36,488 nucleotides of DNA, taken from contig DUPW01000070.1 in the NCBI GenBank assembly GCA_012838125.1, forward strand, positions 1 through 36,488. The letters are read 5' to 3'. Made by a program: the position numbers and the translations under genes. The DNA is from Papillibacter sp. (GTDB taxonomy: Bacteria > Bacillota > Clostridia > Oscillospirales > Oscillospiraceae). The notes beneath the pieces are model-generated. The model was not told the origin of the DNA, made no database searches, and saw nothing but the letters and a program-made list of their open reading frames with translations. Shown in pieces: positions 5,452-35,420 of this stretch; the first letter of the stretch is position 1, and each line of letters begins with the position of its first letter.

Positions 5452-6405
5452 TTAGGCTGCGCCGCCATACAGAAGCTCGAAAAGCTGCTCCGCCGCGTCC
5501 ACAAGGCGGGGACCGGGGCGGGTGATTTCGTCGTTATCGGCGTTGAGGACGTTGCCCTCTACGATGGCGGTGATGCCGCCCCAGCCGGCGCGGCCTTTGA
5601 TTTCCTCAACGGGGTCGGGGGAGCCTTCGTAGGACATCGTCGTGGTGACGATGAAGTCCGGATTGCGCTGGATGACCTGCTCTTCGCTCACTTCGGCCCA
5701 GAGGGAAAGGTCTGCAAAGATGTTCTCGACGCCCAGAAGTTCGCCCATCTCGTGCATAAAGGTGCCGGTGCCGGCCGTCCACAGGCCGTACTGCAGCGGG
5801 GAGACTTCAAAGTAGATGGTGGGTGTCTTCTCCAGCTGGGGAACCTTTGCAGAAAGGGCGGCGAATGCGTCTTTCATAGAGGTGATGAGTGCGTCGGCTT
5901 CGGCGGTCTTATCAACAACCTCGCCGAGGAGGGCAATAGCGTCGTAAACGCCCTCCAGATGGGGGGCTTCCGTCACAATCACGGCAAGGCCTGCATTTTC
6001 AAGGGACTCTATATGCTCGTTTGTCTGCGCCATGGTGCTCATGACGACAACGTCTGGATTTAAGGCAATAATCTGCTCGATGTTCGTATCGTATCCGGAT
6101 GCCACGGACGGGACAGCCAGCACGTCCTCAGGATAGTCACAGTATTCGCCCCGGCCAACGATTCTGTCCCCGACGCCGAGGGCATAGAGGATTTCGCAGT
6201 CGCCGGCGGTGAGGGCGACGATGCGCTCGGCCGGCTTCTCAAGGGTCACCTCGCGGCCCTTCATGTCCGTGACGGTCAGCCCGTCCGGCGATGAAGTGGG
6301 CGCGGGAGACGAGGTGGGCGTGGGAGACGGCGGACCGTCATTTTTGCAGGCCGCAAAAGATGCAATCGCGAGTACGGCTAACAGTAGTGCGCAGAGTTTT
6401 TTCAT
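5452..6405 (-). CDS. ABC transporter substrate-binding lipoprotein (BtuF-like)
   Basis: Lipobox-like LAIASFAAC, PAERIVALTAGDCEILYALGVGDRIVGRGEYCDYP fold signature; upstream of permease. Confidence 0.9.
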   Translation of the reverse strand: MKKLCALLLAVLAIASFAACKNDGPPSPTPTSSPAPTSSPDGLTVTDMKGREVTLEKPAERIVALTAGDCEILYALGVGDRIVGRGEYCDYPEDVLAVPSVASGYDTNIEQIIALNPDVVVMSTMAQTNEHIESLENAGLAVIVTEAPHLEGVYDAIALLGEVVDKTAEADALITSMKDAFAALSAKVPQLEKTPTIYFEVSPLQYGLWTAGTGTFMHEMGELLGVENIFADLSLWAEVSEEQVIQRNPDFIVTTTMSYEGSPDPVEEIKGRAGWGGITAIVEGNVLNADNDEITRPGPRLVDAAEQLFELLYGGAA

Positions 6406-28962: not shown

Positions 28963-29051
28963 GGAGAGGTATCGAAGTGGTCATAACGGGGCTGACTCGA
29001 AATCAGTTTGCGGGCAACCGCACGCGGGTTCGAATCCCGCCCTCTCCGCCA
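28963..29051 (+). tRNA. tRNA-Ser (CGA anticodon), CCA encoded
   Basis: GGAGAGG/CCTCTCC acceptor, anticodon loop CTCGAAA, long variable arm GCGGGCAACCGC, GGTTCGAATCC T-loop. Confidence 0.95.
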
Positions 29052-29058
29052 AAATCGT

Positions 29059-29103
29059 GTAGAAAGTGCCTAAATTGCCAAGCGTGGTTTAGGCACTTTC
29101 TAC
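29059..29103. repeat. 16-bp perfect inverted repeat 8 bp after tRNA-Ser
   Basis: GTAGAAAGTGCCTAAA-N13-TTTAGGCACTTTCTAC; possible tRNA terminator or att-region structure. Confidence 0.85.
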
Positions 29104-29201: not shown

Positions 29202-30359
29202 TTATTTTGCCTCTGCGATGCCAAGGCCGGAGAGCATTGCATCTGCGGAGGTCAGCTTGGAGCTGTAGTCCAGATGGGCGTAAATATTTGCTGTGGTAGA
29301 AAAATCGCTGTGACCAAGCCATTCCTGAATCTGCTTCATGGGAACACCGTTTGCGAGCATCAGACTGGCACAGGAGTGCCGGAGATCGTGAAAACGGATG
29401 CGCCGCAGACCGTTTGCTTCCAGAAGCTTCGGAAACTGCTCCGTCACATAATGGGGCTTGATGAGATCACCGATCTCATTGATGCAGACATAACCTGCAT
29501 ACTTCTTGTTGTACGATTTCCCGCAGAGCCGTCTGTTGTTGTCCTGCTCCGCTTTGACGGCAAGCAGCCGTTCCTTGACGAAAGGAACCAGCGGAAGGGT
29601 TCGCATACTGGACTTGGTTTTGGTGGTATCCGCCGCCACGAGAACGTGCTTATTGTCGAGGTTCACCGATGTAACGGTGTGCCGGATGACAATGGTGTCG
29701 TTCTCAAAATCAATGGCATCCCATTTAAGACCGATGGCTTCGCTGCGGCGCAGACCGTAGAAAGCACCGAACAGAATCGGCAGCTCCAGTTTGGTTCCCT
29801 TGGAGACCTCAAAAAGCTTGTTCACTTCGTCCGCATCAAAGAAGCTGCCGACGAAATGATCCTTCTTGGGGCGTTCAACCTTGTCCGCGGGATTCGACGG
29901 GATCAGATCCAGCTTGACTGCGTACTTCAGAGCTTTGTGAATGTTCGCGTGGTAATGGATAACAGACGAAGCACTCACACTCTTCAGTTTGAACAGATAG
30001 AAGTCCTGGATATCCTTTGCGGTCAGTTCCTTGAGGGTGATCCTTCTCTCGCGAAAATAAGGCGCGATGATACGCTTCACGGATGCTGCGTATGAAGCGT
30101 ATGTAGCGACTGCAATAGAGCTTTTCACGACATCAAGCCACTGCTCCATATAATCAGCGAAAAATATGTCTCCCTCTACCGGTTCTTCGGGCTGGAGCTT
30201 CTGACGTTCTTCCATCAGAAAGGCTTCGGCCTTTTTCTTATTGCCTTTCACAGTGAGACCCGTGGCGATCCACTTGGTCTTTCTCTTACCAAAGGCGTCA
30301 TTGTAATTCAGGACGGCATAGTAATAGCCGTTTTTTTCTCGAAGGTGTCCTGCTACCAT
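29202..30359 (-). CDS. Tyrosine-type site-specific integrase
   Basis: GAFYGLRRSEAIGLKWDAIDF, RFHDLRHSCASLMLANG, WLGHSDFSTTANIYAHLD (R-H-R-H/Y catalytic pattern). Confidence 0.96.
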   Translation of the reverse strand: MVAGHLREKNGYYYAVLNYNDAFGKRKTKWIATGLTVKGNKKKAEAFLMEERQKLQPEEPVEGDIFFADYMEQWLDVVKSSIAVATYASYAASVKRIIAPYFRERRITLKELTAKDIQDFYLFKLKSVSASSVIHYHANIHKALKYAVKLDLIPSNPADKVERPKKDHFVGSFFDADEVNKLFEVSKGTKLELPILFGAFYGLRRSEAIGLKWDAIDFENDTIVIRHTVTSVNLDNKHVLVAADTTKTKSSMRTLPLVPFVKERLLAVKAEQDNNRRLCGKSYNKKYAGYVCINEIGDLIKPHYVTEQFPKLLEANGLRRIRFHDLRHSCASLMLANGVPMKQIQEWLGHSDFSTTANIYAHLDYSSKLTSADAMLSGLGIAEAK

Positions 30360-30465: not shown

Positions 30466-30714
30466 TCAAGCCTCTGCGGATGCGGTCTGAATTCCGATGC
30501 AGAGATAAGAAAAAAGATGAGCCTTGGGAATCCGGTAGGCTCGTCCAACCTTCAGACAGCAGATGCTGCCGGATTTGATGATCTTATATCCCGTCTTTGT
30601 GCTGACGGAAAGAATCTCACACATCTGATCGATGTTCAGCACGTCGGGGTAATCCCTCAGCATGAGCTTGTACGCTTCACGCTGGGAGATGTTTGCTGCA
30701 TTGTTGTTTCCCAT
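30466..30714 (-). CDS. Excisionase-like helix-turn-helix protein
   Basis: DVLNIDQMCEILSVSTKTGYKIIKSGSICCLKVGRAYRIPKAHLFSYL; RBS AGGAGG. Confidence 0.85.
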   Translation of the reverse strand: MGNNNAANISQREAYKLMLRDYPDVLNIDQMCEILSVSTKTGYKIIKSGSICCLKVGRAYRIPKAHLFSYLCIGIQTASAEA

Positions 30715-30861: not shown

Positions 30862-31242
30862 TCACGGTGCTTCCACACATTCGGGAATCTGGAGACCAAG
30901 ACTGATTTCGATGCAGTCATCAACGCGTCGCATCTGTTCCTTATCCAGTCTGCCCATATACTTTTTAAATCTGCGCTTGTCGATGGTCTTGATCTGCTCA
31001 AGAAGTACCATTGAAGTGTCGCTGAGACATTTCACATTTTCAATGCGGCAATGCGTAGGCTGTTCGCTTTTCTTCCAAACACGGGAAGTGATCGGAGCAA
31101 TGATAAGCGTTGGACAAAAGTAATTGCCGGCATCGTTCTGGAGAAGAAGTACCGGTCTGGTGCCGCCCTGCTCAGAGCCGACATAGGGGTTAAGATCTGC
31201 AAGATAAATATCGCCACGGCGATAGTTCCAGTTTTCATTCAT
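30862..31242 (-). CDS. MazF/PemK-family toxin
   Basis: YRRGDIYLADLNPYVGSEQGGTRPVLLLQNDAGNYFCPTLIIAPITSR; RBS AGGAGGAAC. Confidence 0.93.
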   Translation of the reverse strand: MNENWNYRRGDIYLADLNPYVGSEQGGTRPVLLLQNDAGNYFCPTLIIAPITSRVWKKSEQPTHCRIENVKCLSDTSMVLLEQIKTIDKRRFKKYMGRLDKEQMRRVDDCIEISLGLQIPECVEAP

Positions 31243-31279
31243 GTTTATGTTCCTCCTAAGAATTGATTGGTATGTAGAT

Positions 31280-31735
31280 GGGCGAGCTGTATGGTGCAGC
31301 TCGCCCTTTGATATCGGACTGGAATGACAAAGTATATCTGCCATTCCCGATGTTGTTATAAGTCATCTACTTCATACAGACTGCCTTACGCTCTCGGCAC
31401 TCGCTTCACGCCTATGCTTAACTTACATAGCCTCTCACCGGATTGCCTGCGACGGTTGTTAACACGCTCGGACTGTCCCTGGTGGGGAGTAGCACCTCTC
31501 CGTCCTCGTCGCCAATCGGGAGCTACCCGACTTTTCCGAAGCTGGCATTGATCGCTCCCCGTCAAACGGATCGTGGCGTACCCTTCGGCTCGGCTCTTAC
31601 TAGAGAGTTCGTTATCTGATAAAGGTATTCAGTTTTCAAGGAACGTTCACCGCATCCGGGATTAAACTATTACCGTCAGCGGTATAGGAAGTGATTTCTC
31701 CCTTCCAGGTGATAGCCGACGAGAAAGCTTTTTTT
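31280..31735 (-). ncRNA. Candidate long structured RNA (boundaries approximate)
   Basis: No credible long ORF; many short inverted repeats including GGGCGAGCTG/CAGCTCGCCC, GGAATGGCA/TGTCATTCC, GTCGGG/CCCGAT, CCGAAG/CTTCGG; GNRA-like loops (GUGA, GAGA) on the minus strand. Confidence 0.55.
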
Positions 31736-31744
31736 AGAACCAAA

Positions 31745-32221
31745 TCAGCAAAAATATTTGAAGAATTTTCTCAGCTTCTCAATTCTCTTGCCCACCGCCC
31801 TTTGTGAAATTCCAAACTCCTTGCTGATTTCTTCTTGAGTGAAGTTTTCGAACACATGAAGCGTAATTAGTTCGATATCCTTCTTGCCTAATGCTTTGAT
31901 TTGTTTGGCCAGCTCAGGATTGTCGATTTCCTCAGTCCACCAATAACGGGATTTCGCATCAGACTGTTCGATAGTGACTGACATTATTTCGAGGAACTTG
32001 TCGTTCAGCGGGCAAAGCCCCTCGTCATCAGTTCCGAATACATTGTCTGGAATCTGTTGGTTGTGTTCAAAGAATCTGCGTGTGCTGTTGAATGCCTCCA
32101 AATCGAACTGATGCATCTGCTCGATCTGTTCCTCTGTCATGCCTGCAGCGCGATATCCCGCCGCAAGCTTTTCCTGTTCTTCATCAAATCTTTTTCTTTC
32201 AAGCCCGTTGTTCCATGCCAT
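31745..32221 (-). CDS. Sigma-70-like helix-turn-helix regulatory protein of mobile elements
   Basis: LGKKDIELITLHVFENFTQEEISKEFGISQRAVGKRIEKLRKFFKYFC region-4-like HTH; SD AAGGAGATTAC. Confidence 0.8.
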   Translation of the reverse strand: MAWNNGLERKRFDEEQEKLAAGYRAAGMTEEQIEQMHQFDLEAFNSTRRFFEHNQQIPDNVFGTDDEGLCPLNDKFLEIMSVTIEQSDAKSRYWWTEEIDNPELAKQIKALGKKDIELITLHVFENFTQEEISKEFGISQRAVGKRIEKLRKFFKYFC

Positions 32222-32502: not shown

Positions 32503-32748
32503 TCAGCGGGATAGGATTCTTCTGAGCCGTCTCATGCTCATTACATCGAAAACGGTGATCCTTCCACATTTTTTGCATTTTGATTCGACATGACCGCGTG
32601 TATCCTCGTACACGACAATTGCATTATGCTTACAATATGGGCACTTGATATATCGCGGTTCCTGATTGGCAATCGCTTTTCGTGCCCGTATAATTTTTTG
32701 CTGCATTTCAGCAGAAGGTTCTGTAATTCTGATTTCACATCTGCTCAT
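32503..32748 (-). CDS. Small zinc-ribbon protein
   Basis: IKCPYCKHNAIVVYEDTRGHVESKCKKCGR (CxxC...CxxC); ATGA overlap with upstream gene; RBS GGAGGTG. Confidence 0.75.
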   Translation of the reverse strand: MSRCEIRITEPSAEMQQKIIRARKAIANQEPRYIKCPYCKHNAIVVYEDTRGHVESKCKKCGRITVFDVMSMRRLRRILSR

Positions 32749-33479
32749 GGCCACACCTCCAATGGATCGCGATATTCCGAAAAGGGGCGATCCTCAAGAT
32801 ATCCAAGCTGGCGCAGCCGTATGGTTAAGGCTGTCTTTGACACTTTGAACACATCGCAGATCAACTTGATTGCCAGCCTGTCGATGTAAATGAAGTGATT
32901 CTCATAGCATACCAATTTGCGATTCGGACAATAGCGGACTATCGCATATTTGATTTCCTCCTGCGGCATCAAAATTGCAGCGCCCAGCGCGTTCGCCTGC
33001 CATTCATTCCAGTCCTCTCTGGTTTTCAGATCGCGAAGCGAATACGCACGTCGTTCGGAATACTGCCTTCTGCAAGCGGTTTTGCTCGCGTCACTTTCCA
33101 TCTGGAACAGAATTTGATGCGCACATTCATGGGCCAATGTAAACCTCCGCTTTCCGCAGAGCTTTTTGATTTGCCCCGGTTCTATGAAGCTTGAATCCAG
33201 TAAAACCTGATTTTGCTTCAATGGAATCGTCCTGGTCATCCCATCCGTCTCAACGATATACTCCGTATCGCTGTAAGCGGTTACCCCGCAGAGACTTCCG
33301 TCGGGCGATAAGCGGGTAAAAGACACTTTCAACCCAAGGTATTGACTTGCAAGCTGATCTATTGGTGTGCCGCGAGGTGTAGATCTTGCTGCCTGTCCAT
33401 CTTCTCTGAAAAAGAATCTATTGAAGTCTTTTGTTGTTGCTGCTGCTATGTCTTCGATTTGCGCGTGAGATAAAATCAT
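32745..33479 (-). CDS. ImmA/IrrE-family metallopeptidase-like protein
   Basis: RRFTLAHECAHQILFQMES (HExxH) and downstream NEWQANALGAAILMP. Confidence 0.88.
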   Translation of the reverse strand: MILSHAQIEDIAAATTKDFNRFFFREDGQAARSTPRGTPIDQLASQYLGLKVSFTRLSPDGSLCGVTAYSDTEYIVETDGMTRTIPLKQNQVLLDSSFIEPGQIKKLCGKRRFTLAHECAHQILFQMESDASKTACRRQYSERRAYSLRDLKTREDWNEWQANALGAAILMPQEEIKYAIVRYCPNRKLVCYENHFIYIDRLAIKLICDVFKVSKTALTIRLRQLGYLEDRPFSEYRDPLEVWP

Positions 33480-33736
33480 CAACTGCCCTCCCTGGCTTCT
33501 ACAAACCATTTCTCACCTTCACGAAACAGGAAGGTTTCCTTTCCTTAAATCATTACGGTGTAGCGAATGCCGCCACCGCCGACCTTTTTTGAGGAAGCGC
33601 GGCATTTATACAGTATTTGATCAATCTGATAAACCAGGCCGTTGTCCCAGCGAATCAGGCGTGGATAAAAGACGCCTTCTTTGTCTACGTCTAAATTGAC
33701 AGAGACGTATGCTTTTCTACATGACGCGGTCTGCAT
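33479..33736 (-). pseudogene. Small mobile-element protein interrupted by in-frame TAA (33545-33547)
   Basis: RKAYVSVNLDVDKEGVFYPRLIRWDNGLVYQIDQILYKCRASSKKVGGGGIRYTVMI*GKETFLFREGEKWFVEAREGS*; second stop overlaps the next gene's ATG. Confidence 0.65.
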
Positions 33737-33772
33737 ATGATTCCTCCGTTCATAAAAAACTCAAAAGAAATA

Positions 33773-33880
33773 CGAACAATATTTCGCATTTCTATTGACA
33801 CACAAGGTTTCGCGTGGTATCTTTAGGACACGAACGGGATTTCGCGTAAGTGACCATAGTGTATCACGAACATATTTTCA
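33773..33880. promoter_or_regulatory. Switch region: three CGAA-N6-TTCG-like operators and two predicted face-to-face promoters
   Basis: Operators 33773-33786, 33831-33844, 33867-33880; + promoter TTGACA-17-TATCTT (33795-33823); - promoter TTGACA-17-TACACT (33858-33886). Confidence 0.65.
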
Positions 33881-33942
33881 TGTCAATGGTTGCATATGAA
33901 AAAGTGTTCGTGTTCACAAAAAGTTTTAGAAAGAGGTGCCTT

Positions 33943-34359
33943 ATGGTATTCAAAGACAGGCTGAAAGAAAAGCGAGTGGAGGCTGGACTTACTCAGGCTG
34001 AACTGGCGCAGAAGGCTGGTGTTACCACTCGTACCATCCAGAACTATGAACTCGGAAATAGAAAACCGGCTAACATGGAAGTCATTCAGAAGATCGCAGA
34101 TGCTCTGGCGACTACTACGGAATACCTGCTTGGCAGCAGCGGCGCTTATGTTGTCGAGGCCCATGAGAAGGGCGGTGCAAAGGCAGCGCGAGATATTGAT
34201 GAACTGGTCAGCGAAGTGACCGGTATGTTCGCCGGTGGTAAATTGAGCGAAGAAGCGCTGGAAGGTGCAATGAAGGCTTTGAACGATGCCTATTGGATGG
34301 CAAAAGAAAAGAACAAAAAATACGGCAGACGCAAAAGCAAAGAGGTTGCACAGGATTGA
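33943..34359 (+). CDS. XRE-family repressor (ImmR-like)
   Basis: FKDRLKEKRVEAGLTQAELAQKAGVTTRTIQNYELGNRKPANMEVIQKIADAL. Confidence 0.93.
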   Translation: MVFKDRLKEKRVEAGLTQAELAQKAGVTTRTIQNYELGNRKPANMEVIQKIADALATTTEYLLGSSGAYVVEAHEKGGAKAARDIDELVSEVTGMFAGGKLSEEALEGAMKALNDAYWMAKEKNKKYGRRKSKEVAQD

Positions 34360-34418
34360 GTCCTTATTTTGGTACAACTGAAATGTTATAATGATTCCCC
34401 ACGAATGGAGGTGGAGCG

Positions 34419-34928
34419 ATGCGTGCTGACTATCTCTCAAAAGTAGGCAGCGATCTCGTGAAACGGTGCGGAACAAGAGACCCCTTTCGCATAGCACATG
34501 AGCTTGGCATAGAGGTGCTGTTTTGTGATGACTTTGGCCCTCTCAAGGGGATGTACCGAGTAATCAAGCGCAATCGTTTCATTTTTATCAACAAGGACTT
34601 AAGCGAGCGAATGCAGCATATCGTCTGCGCTCATGAACTGGGCCACGATCAACTGCACCGTCACTTTACAAATGGAAGCGTGTTGCAGGAGTTCATGCTT
34701 TACGATATGGCAACGAAGCCTGAATACGAGGCAAACATTGTCGCCGCAGAAATCCTTCTTGATACTGATGAATTGCTTGAGTATATCTATCAGTACGGAT
34801 ATACCTCTGAACAGATTGCACGAGTTATGAACACAGACATAAACCTGGTTGCTTTGAAGATTGCGCATCTGGCAGAAACCGGATATGACCTGCGCCGGAT
34901 CGAGCATCGAAGCGACTTTTTGAAATAA
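34419..34928 (+). CDS. ImmA/IrrE-family metallopeptidase
   Basis: RMQHIVCAHELGHDQLH (HExxH); directly follows the XRE gene. Confidence 0.93.
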   Translation: MRADYLSKVGSDLVKRCGTRDPFRIAHELGIEVLFCDDFGPLKGMYRVIKRNRFIFINKDLSERMQHIVCAHELGHDQLHRHFTNGSVLQEFMLYDMATKPEYEANIVAAEILLDTDELLEYIYQYGYTSEQIARVMNTDINLVALKIAHLAETGYDLRRIEHRSDFLK

Positions 34929-34940
34929 TGGAGGCTTGCG

Positions 34941-35420
34941 ATGAGCAGAAAATTAGTTGCATACTTCTCTGCAAGCGGAGTGACCGCAAAAGTGGCAGAG
35001 ACTTTATCTGAGGCTATCGGCGCAGACCTTTATGAGATCGAGCCGGAAGTCCCCTACACGAAAGCTGACCTTGATTGGATGGATAAGCAGTCTCGCAGCA
35101 CCATTGAGATGAACGATCCTGCCTCCCGTCCTGCTATCGCCGGTATGCGTGACAACATGGATGACTATGATACCGTGTTTGTTGGCTTTCCTATCTGGTG
35201 GTATGTCGCACCGACAATCATCAATACCTTCCTTGAGAGCTATGACCTGACTGGAAAAACTATCATCCCGTTTGCTACATCCGGTGGCAGCGGAATGGGA
35301 AAAACCAATGAACGGCTTGCTTCAAGCTGCAAGGGCGCAAAACTGATTGAGGGCAAGGTTTTCAATCATAGCGCCAGCCACGAAGAACTGGCAGCTTGGG
35401 TTGATGGATTACATATTTAA
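34941..35420 (+). CDS. Flavodoxin family protein
   Basis: [75 protein letters not shown]. Confidence 0.93.

Follow-up and report, generated by a model that had tools for sequence, protein, structure and literature searches.

What does the non-coding stretch between a sigma-like gene (stop at 31745) and a mazF/pemK-type toxin gene (start at 31242) do on the minus strand of the 36,488-nt stretch of DNA analysed here (the window)? A sequence-only reading had placed a large structured RNA of this element family at 31280-31735, pointing to dense inverted repeats on the minus strand and to the lack of a convincing ORF. The repeats that it listed were located on that strand, which folds better than its dinucleotide shuffles (z -2.74, 0/100 shuffles as good), and the plus strand gives no better fold than its own shuffles (z -0.90). 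Together with strong covariation in homologues, this folding bears out a structured RNA, and no sense ORF of at least 60 aa was found over its conserved part. The proposed extent held in that the RNA lies within it and had to be narrowed in that the family-conserved part covers only about 31402-31641 (minus strand), with the hairpins at 31280-31348 falling outside and 31642-31735 lying upstream of boxA (Table 1). The hairpin at 31280-31306 resembles a terminator only on the plus strand. A 75-aa ORF at 31324-31551 (plus strand) runs antisense to the RNA and corresponds to orf5, which overlaps canT of Tn916 and is dispensable; in public records, ORFs overlapping the RNA carry the labels hypothetical protein or TnpW. 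Directly after the sigma-like stop, at 31713-31759, GGTTCTAAAAAAAGCTTTCTCGTCGGCTA is almost identical in the same-genus relative L006, in different reading frames, and its part TTCTCGTCGGCTA was found, at ≤1 mismatch, at no locus other than the window and L006.

Table 1. Features of the RNA and its neighbourhood in the window
Feature	Positions	Strand	Remarks
tRNA-Ser(CGA)	28963-29048	+	likely attachment site at integrase end
Tyrosine integrase	29202-30359	-	PF00589, E 4e-27
Excisionase-like gene	30466-30714	-	PF12728, TIGR01764
mazF/pemK-type toxin gene	30862-31242	-	PF02452, E 3e-32
Strong hairpin GGGCGAGCTG...CAGCTCGCCC	31306-31280	-	outside family core; directly 5' of mazF Shine-Dalgarno
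Hairpin GGGAATGGCA...TGTCATTCC	31348-31321	-	outside family core
HP3, GGC-GTGAA-GCG	31402-31412	-	position corresponds to pemK RNA terminal hairpin
HP2, CTATG/CATAG (31430-31426/31416-31412)	31412-31430	-	compensatory changes in L131, L122, L017
P1, CCACC..GG/CC..GGTG	31434-31485	-	main covarying stem, around core; 8/8 pairs with compensatory changes (A2)
Near-invariant core CAGTCCGAGCGTGTTAACAACCGTCGCAGGCAATC (P2)	31442-31476	-	94% identity over 35 nt in relatives
P0, 3' strand GAGAG	31496-31500	-	aligned with canT(S3) site of Tn916
Hairpin TCGGGTAGCTCCCGA	31516-31530	-	covarying
5' domain: helix CCGAAG/CTTCGG (31588-31583/31541-31536) around CGCCACGA - hairpin CCGT/ACGG - GAGCGA	31536-31588	-	
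P0, 5' strand CTCTC	31603-31607	-	pairs with GAGAG 31496-31500; helix covaries (19 sequences)
boxA CCTTGAAAACTGAATA	31626-31641	-	identical to rRNA-spacer 16-mer of relative G044
Sigma-like ORF (sigma-70 region 4)	31745-32221	-	PF08281, E 1e-7; upstream of RNA, same strand

Relatives of the RNA and its covarying structure

When the region was compared by blastn with 60 related genomes, a 35-nt core (minus strand, 31476-31442) matched with 94% identity in a second genome of the genus and in one from another family of the order; only through this core is the kinship visible in blastn, and the whole region gave no blastn match among plasmids and phages. A pattern derived from the core retrieved at least 115 matching stretches in bacterial and archaeal genomes plus 12 viral contigs, and among the matches listed 56 of the 132 core occurrences were Tn916-like. 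The Tn916-type core is also present in two records filed as Streptococcus and Enterococcus phages (H19 and H20; KY065497.1 and OR846592.1), which are perhaps Tn916 insertions or mislabelled elements.

Four of the relatives (L002, L003, L004 and L006) are members of Rfam RF02913, "pemK RNA", with scores of 50-62 bits (gathering score 34.8); the pemK motif reportedly originates from Weinberg 2017. At gathering scores Rfam matched nothing in the window except two tRNAs, the region searched alone up to E 10 gave nothing above a gathering score, and a search with the RF02913 model itself, taken up to E 10, left the window without a hit. There was likewise no match to GOLLD, ROOL, HEARO, OLE, raiA, group I/II introns, tmRNA, RNase P or T-box (at Rfam gathering scores, and up to E 10 in 31200-31800), nor to the antiterminator families in Rfam at the region. 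A caiA RNA match at the mazF leader (24.5 bits, gathering score 55.5) was judged to be chance, given its context of a hairpin and a Shine-Dalgarno sequence. The lack of an Rfam match thus holds for the window copy, but since its relatives are pemK RNA, the RNA does not belong to an unknown class.

A covariance model (R1) built from 36 relatives, with the window excluded, found the window copy at 31400-31497 (minus strand; 70.1 bits, E 9.1e-19) as its sole match in the window, and canT of Tn916 scored 99.8 bits with it. The Rfam model probably misses the window copy because the HP2 and HP3 sequences differ in its subtype, which consists of the window, L017, L122, L126 and L131, all missed by that model. 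Relatives with the same core and layout exceed the gathering score of RF02913, and a PemK/MazF gene lies downstream both there and in the window, whereas in the RF02913 model the conserved core is handled as an insertion, and boxA and the 5' domain are missing. R1 matches were found in 66/295 genomes of the order and, counting the window's own genome, in 13/299 genomes sampled across the phylum. The window's genome carries a second RNA of the pemK/canT type (G000:C61:16108-16188, minus strand; L136, L186; 53.8 bits), a short form that lacks the long core. No adjoining sigma-like or recombinase gene was found, and its upstream side is cut by the contig end. In genome G003, two pemK RNA copies stand in tandem behind one sigma-like gene (L002, 900-1640).

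The sequence-only reading had named covariation among blastn-found homologues as one check on a structured RNA, and the structure was evaluated in two alignments. In alignment A1, which was aligned by sequence only, 18/23 pairs changed on both sides (162 cells vs 55 shuffled; structures slid along the alignment, ≤59). In A2, with 68 sequences fitted to the model and therefore leaning towards its own structure, 20/23 pairs showed compensatory changes (368 cells vs 99 shuffled; slid structures ≤47). P1 stays paired while every one of its pairs varies, its inner two pairs being UC/GA, CC/GG or CU/AG in relatives and GG/CC in the window. P2 is invariant in A1, which hence speaks neither for nor against it. 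The HP2 counterparts differ in sequence and can be folded alike (CTATG/CATAG in the window, TCATG/CATGG in L131, CTGTAC/GTACAG in L122 and CTTCG/CGGAG in L017).

Because the 5' domains vary in length, a consensus fold computed automatically from the full-length mixed alignment showed little beyond P1. Restriction to 19 sequences with similar 5' domains resolved P0, a long-range helix closing the 5' domain, and the inner hairpins, which are both supported by covariation: 24/33 pairs changed on both sides (96 cells; shuffles averaged 27 and reached at most 41). The motif order of the 5' domain is kept in relatives, where its inner hairpin covaries.

boxA and the gene context

A boxA-like stretch had been noted near the 5' side, and a true boxA does lie there, at 31641-31626. 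In the window's genome the only occurrence of the pattern CYTTGAMAAYTGAAYA is at the RNA analysed here, and in G003 the only one is at that genome's RNA; the complete genome G044 holds three, one at its RNA and one in each of two 16S-23S spacers. The boxA of the G044 RNA is one base different from that of the window, and the exact 16-mer of the window occurs in G044 only in the two spacers, about 160 nt before the 23S match. Across the family, boxA-like sites (≤4 mismatches to CTTTGAAAACTGAATA) were present within 450 nt upstream of the core at 51/61 loci, mostly about 60 or 145-230 nt from it, against 5/57 downstream, 3/61 on the other strand and 2/61 in shuffled sequence. In rRNA and lambda antitermination, boxA recruits NusB and S10 (reviewed in PMC12691694), and the window boxA would be expected to recruit NusB-S10 as well. 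The rRNA operons of G044 carry the same 16 nt in their spacers, whereas in the window boxA precedes an extensive, dedicated RNA fold carried by a mobile element.

The gene order in the window is sigma-like gene, RNA, mazF, xis-like gene, tyrosine integrase and tRNA-Ser. A search for a second copy of the tRNA-Ser 3' end in the genome returned only the tRNA itself. A strong terminator-like hairpin (29059-29103, plus strand) is situated close to the likely attachment site, in the gap separating the tRNA-Ser from the integrase end. On the other flank, beside the sigma-like gene, 32503-35420 holds two M78-type peptidase genes, a Cro/C1-type repressor and a flavodoxin gene, which are probably the regulatory genes and cargo of the element.

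Of the 112 loci, 71 showed a sigma-like ORF upstream; on the downstream side, 85 showed a tyrosine or serine recombinase and 42 showed mazF. These counts are lower bounds because many loci are short, and wrong-side controls gave 0 or 1. The usual layout is therefore sigma-like gene, boxA, RNA and recombinase. As the recombinase is found twice as often as mazF, the common partner of the RNA is the recombination module and not the toxin, which goes against the suggestion of a dedicated regulator of the toxin operon.

A VirD4-like coupling-protein gene mostly lies upstream of the RNA in complete or near-complete relatives, at 5-63 kb and in the same orientation; the conjugation marker used to find it was NF045973, Pfam AAA_10 having been dropped as too generic. 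The distances are 49 and 35 kb in G003, 47-63 kb in G044, 40 kb in G201, 33 kb in G206 and 5 kb in G104; exceptions are one G119 copy with the coupling-protein gene 5 kb downstream and a second G201 copy with none near. With this arrangement, a transcript continuing beyond int in the circularised element would extend into the transfer genes. In the window's own genome (G000) no relaxase, VirB4 or coupling protein was found, and the contig ends at 36488, before the element does; the element may therefore be a remnant, a non-conjugative island or incompletely assembled.

Comparison with canT of Tn916 and rival explanations

Tn916, read in plasmid pCF10, carries the motif between orf8 and xis, with a pemK RNA match at L134 6000-6100 (55.0 bits). 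At this position lies canT, an orientation-specific, cis-acting, processive antiterminator (Wirachman and Grossman 2024, PMC11658703), which is essential for transfer and most likely acts as RNA, and which neither complements nor interferes when supplied in trans (PMC11658703). The canT(S3) mutation, ATA to TGC at +283 after orf8, inactivates canT (PMC11658703); its triplet corresponds to locus positions 6000-6002, exactly the first 3 nt of the pemK RNA match, and the S3 site of canT lies at the end of P0, at the P0/P1 junction. The 452-bp canT fragment that was tested begins two bases inside the 16-nt boxA, so that boxA may be partly dispensable.

Both canT and the window copy follow a sigma-like gene, stand ahead of xis-int and are co-directional with the recombination genes, and they share boxA at the 5' end, the order P0-P1-core-HP2-HP3 and a near-identical core. 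The window copy differs from canT in its HP2 and HP3 sequences, in having mazF ahead of xis, where Tn916 has no mazF at the corresponding place, and in the S3 triplet AUA, which is not conserved: the window has GAG at the aligned place, within the covarying helix P0, and this is its main departure from canT. RNA-based processive antitermination is also known from the put RNA of phage HK022, the EAR RNA of the eps operon and conAn2 of pLS20 (PMC11658703), to none of which we found any sequence relation of the window RNA.

No structure of canT could be obtained by its authors from single-sequence folding, and their paper mentions neither pemK nor boxA (PMC11658703). Neither a link between pemK RNA and canT nor a boxA in canT was found in the literature searched (open-licence papers), where pemK RNA appears in a software test set and as an Rfam entry with improved structure, and where further papers containing its name or accession bear unrelated titles. 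Judged on these open-licence papers, the link seems unreported so far. New here are the equation of pemK RNA with canT, the presence of boxA throughout the family, the covariation-supported structure and a subtype missed by Rfam.

We conclude, with a probability of roughly 0.8, that the region is a divergent member of the canT/pemK-RNA family, i.e., a cis-acting processive antitermination RNA of a Tn916-type integrative element. The window copy is tied to this family by homology, conserved structure, gene order, co-orientation and boxA identity. Antitermination in cis is shown for Tn916 only, and by kinship with canT the window copy would be active in the same manner; an antitermination element had been one of several guesses from the sequence, and the canT homology favours it over the others.

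The alternative that fares best, a cis-regulatory leader by which mazF is controlled through attenuation or at the level of translation, would fit the filing of pemK RNA as cis-regulatory in Rfam, the presence of mazF as the next gene here and in many relatives, and the strong hairpin directly ahead of the mazF Shine-Dalgarno sequence. We nevertheless consider it unlikely, as mazF was not found downstream in 70/112 loci (some of them short), and Tn916 has no such gene there, yet its RNA is active as an antiterminator. That the RNA works in trans, as an sRNA or an RNA antitoxin for MazF, had also been suggested and would suit a discrete, highly structured RNA adjoining a toxin gene; this is highly improbable given that its homologue canT works only in cis (PMC11658703). 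The conserved place of the RNA, a co-directional leader position ahead of varied recombinases, argues against a trans-acting RNA as well. Just as improbable is a DNA-level element (an att site, oriT or protein-binding repeats), which the inverted repeats and the location near the recombinase end of mobile elements might suggest, since compensatory changes preserve pairing as the sequence changes, the layout is strand-specific and boxA is a known RNA signal; canT is, moreover, orientation-specific (PMC11658703).

Proposed mechanism and implications

On the antitermination reading, transcription would start upstream of the sigma-like gene, and boxA would emerge in the transcript ahead of the folded RNA. 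This RNA would remain associated with RNA polymerase, probably together with host NusB-S10 on boxA, and make the complex ignore terminators; read-through would then yield transcripts of mazF, xis and int. After excision and circularisation, the genes at the other end of the element would also be transcribed. The parts played here by boxA and the Nus factors, and the read-through after excision, are inferred.

It is tempting to speculate, at what we regard as even odds, that pemK RNA and canT constitute one widespread family of two-part, processive antiterminators, in which an rRNA-type boxA captures host NusB-S10 and a conserved RNA fold remodels RNA polymerase, and by which mobile elements of Clostridia and Bacilli tie the expression of transfer genes to excision.

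The comparison with canT suggests a testable function for pemK RNA, an unexplained Rfam family, and supplies a covariation-supported structure, unlike the single-sequence folding of canT. In addition, the range of RNA-based antitermination grows from Tn916 to roughly one in five sampled genomes of the order (the 66/295 with R1 matches). Mobile elements, carriers of resistance genes included, may need a host pathway, boxA/NusB-S10, to switch on their transfer genes.
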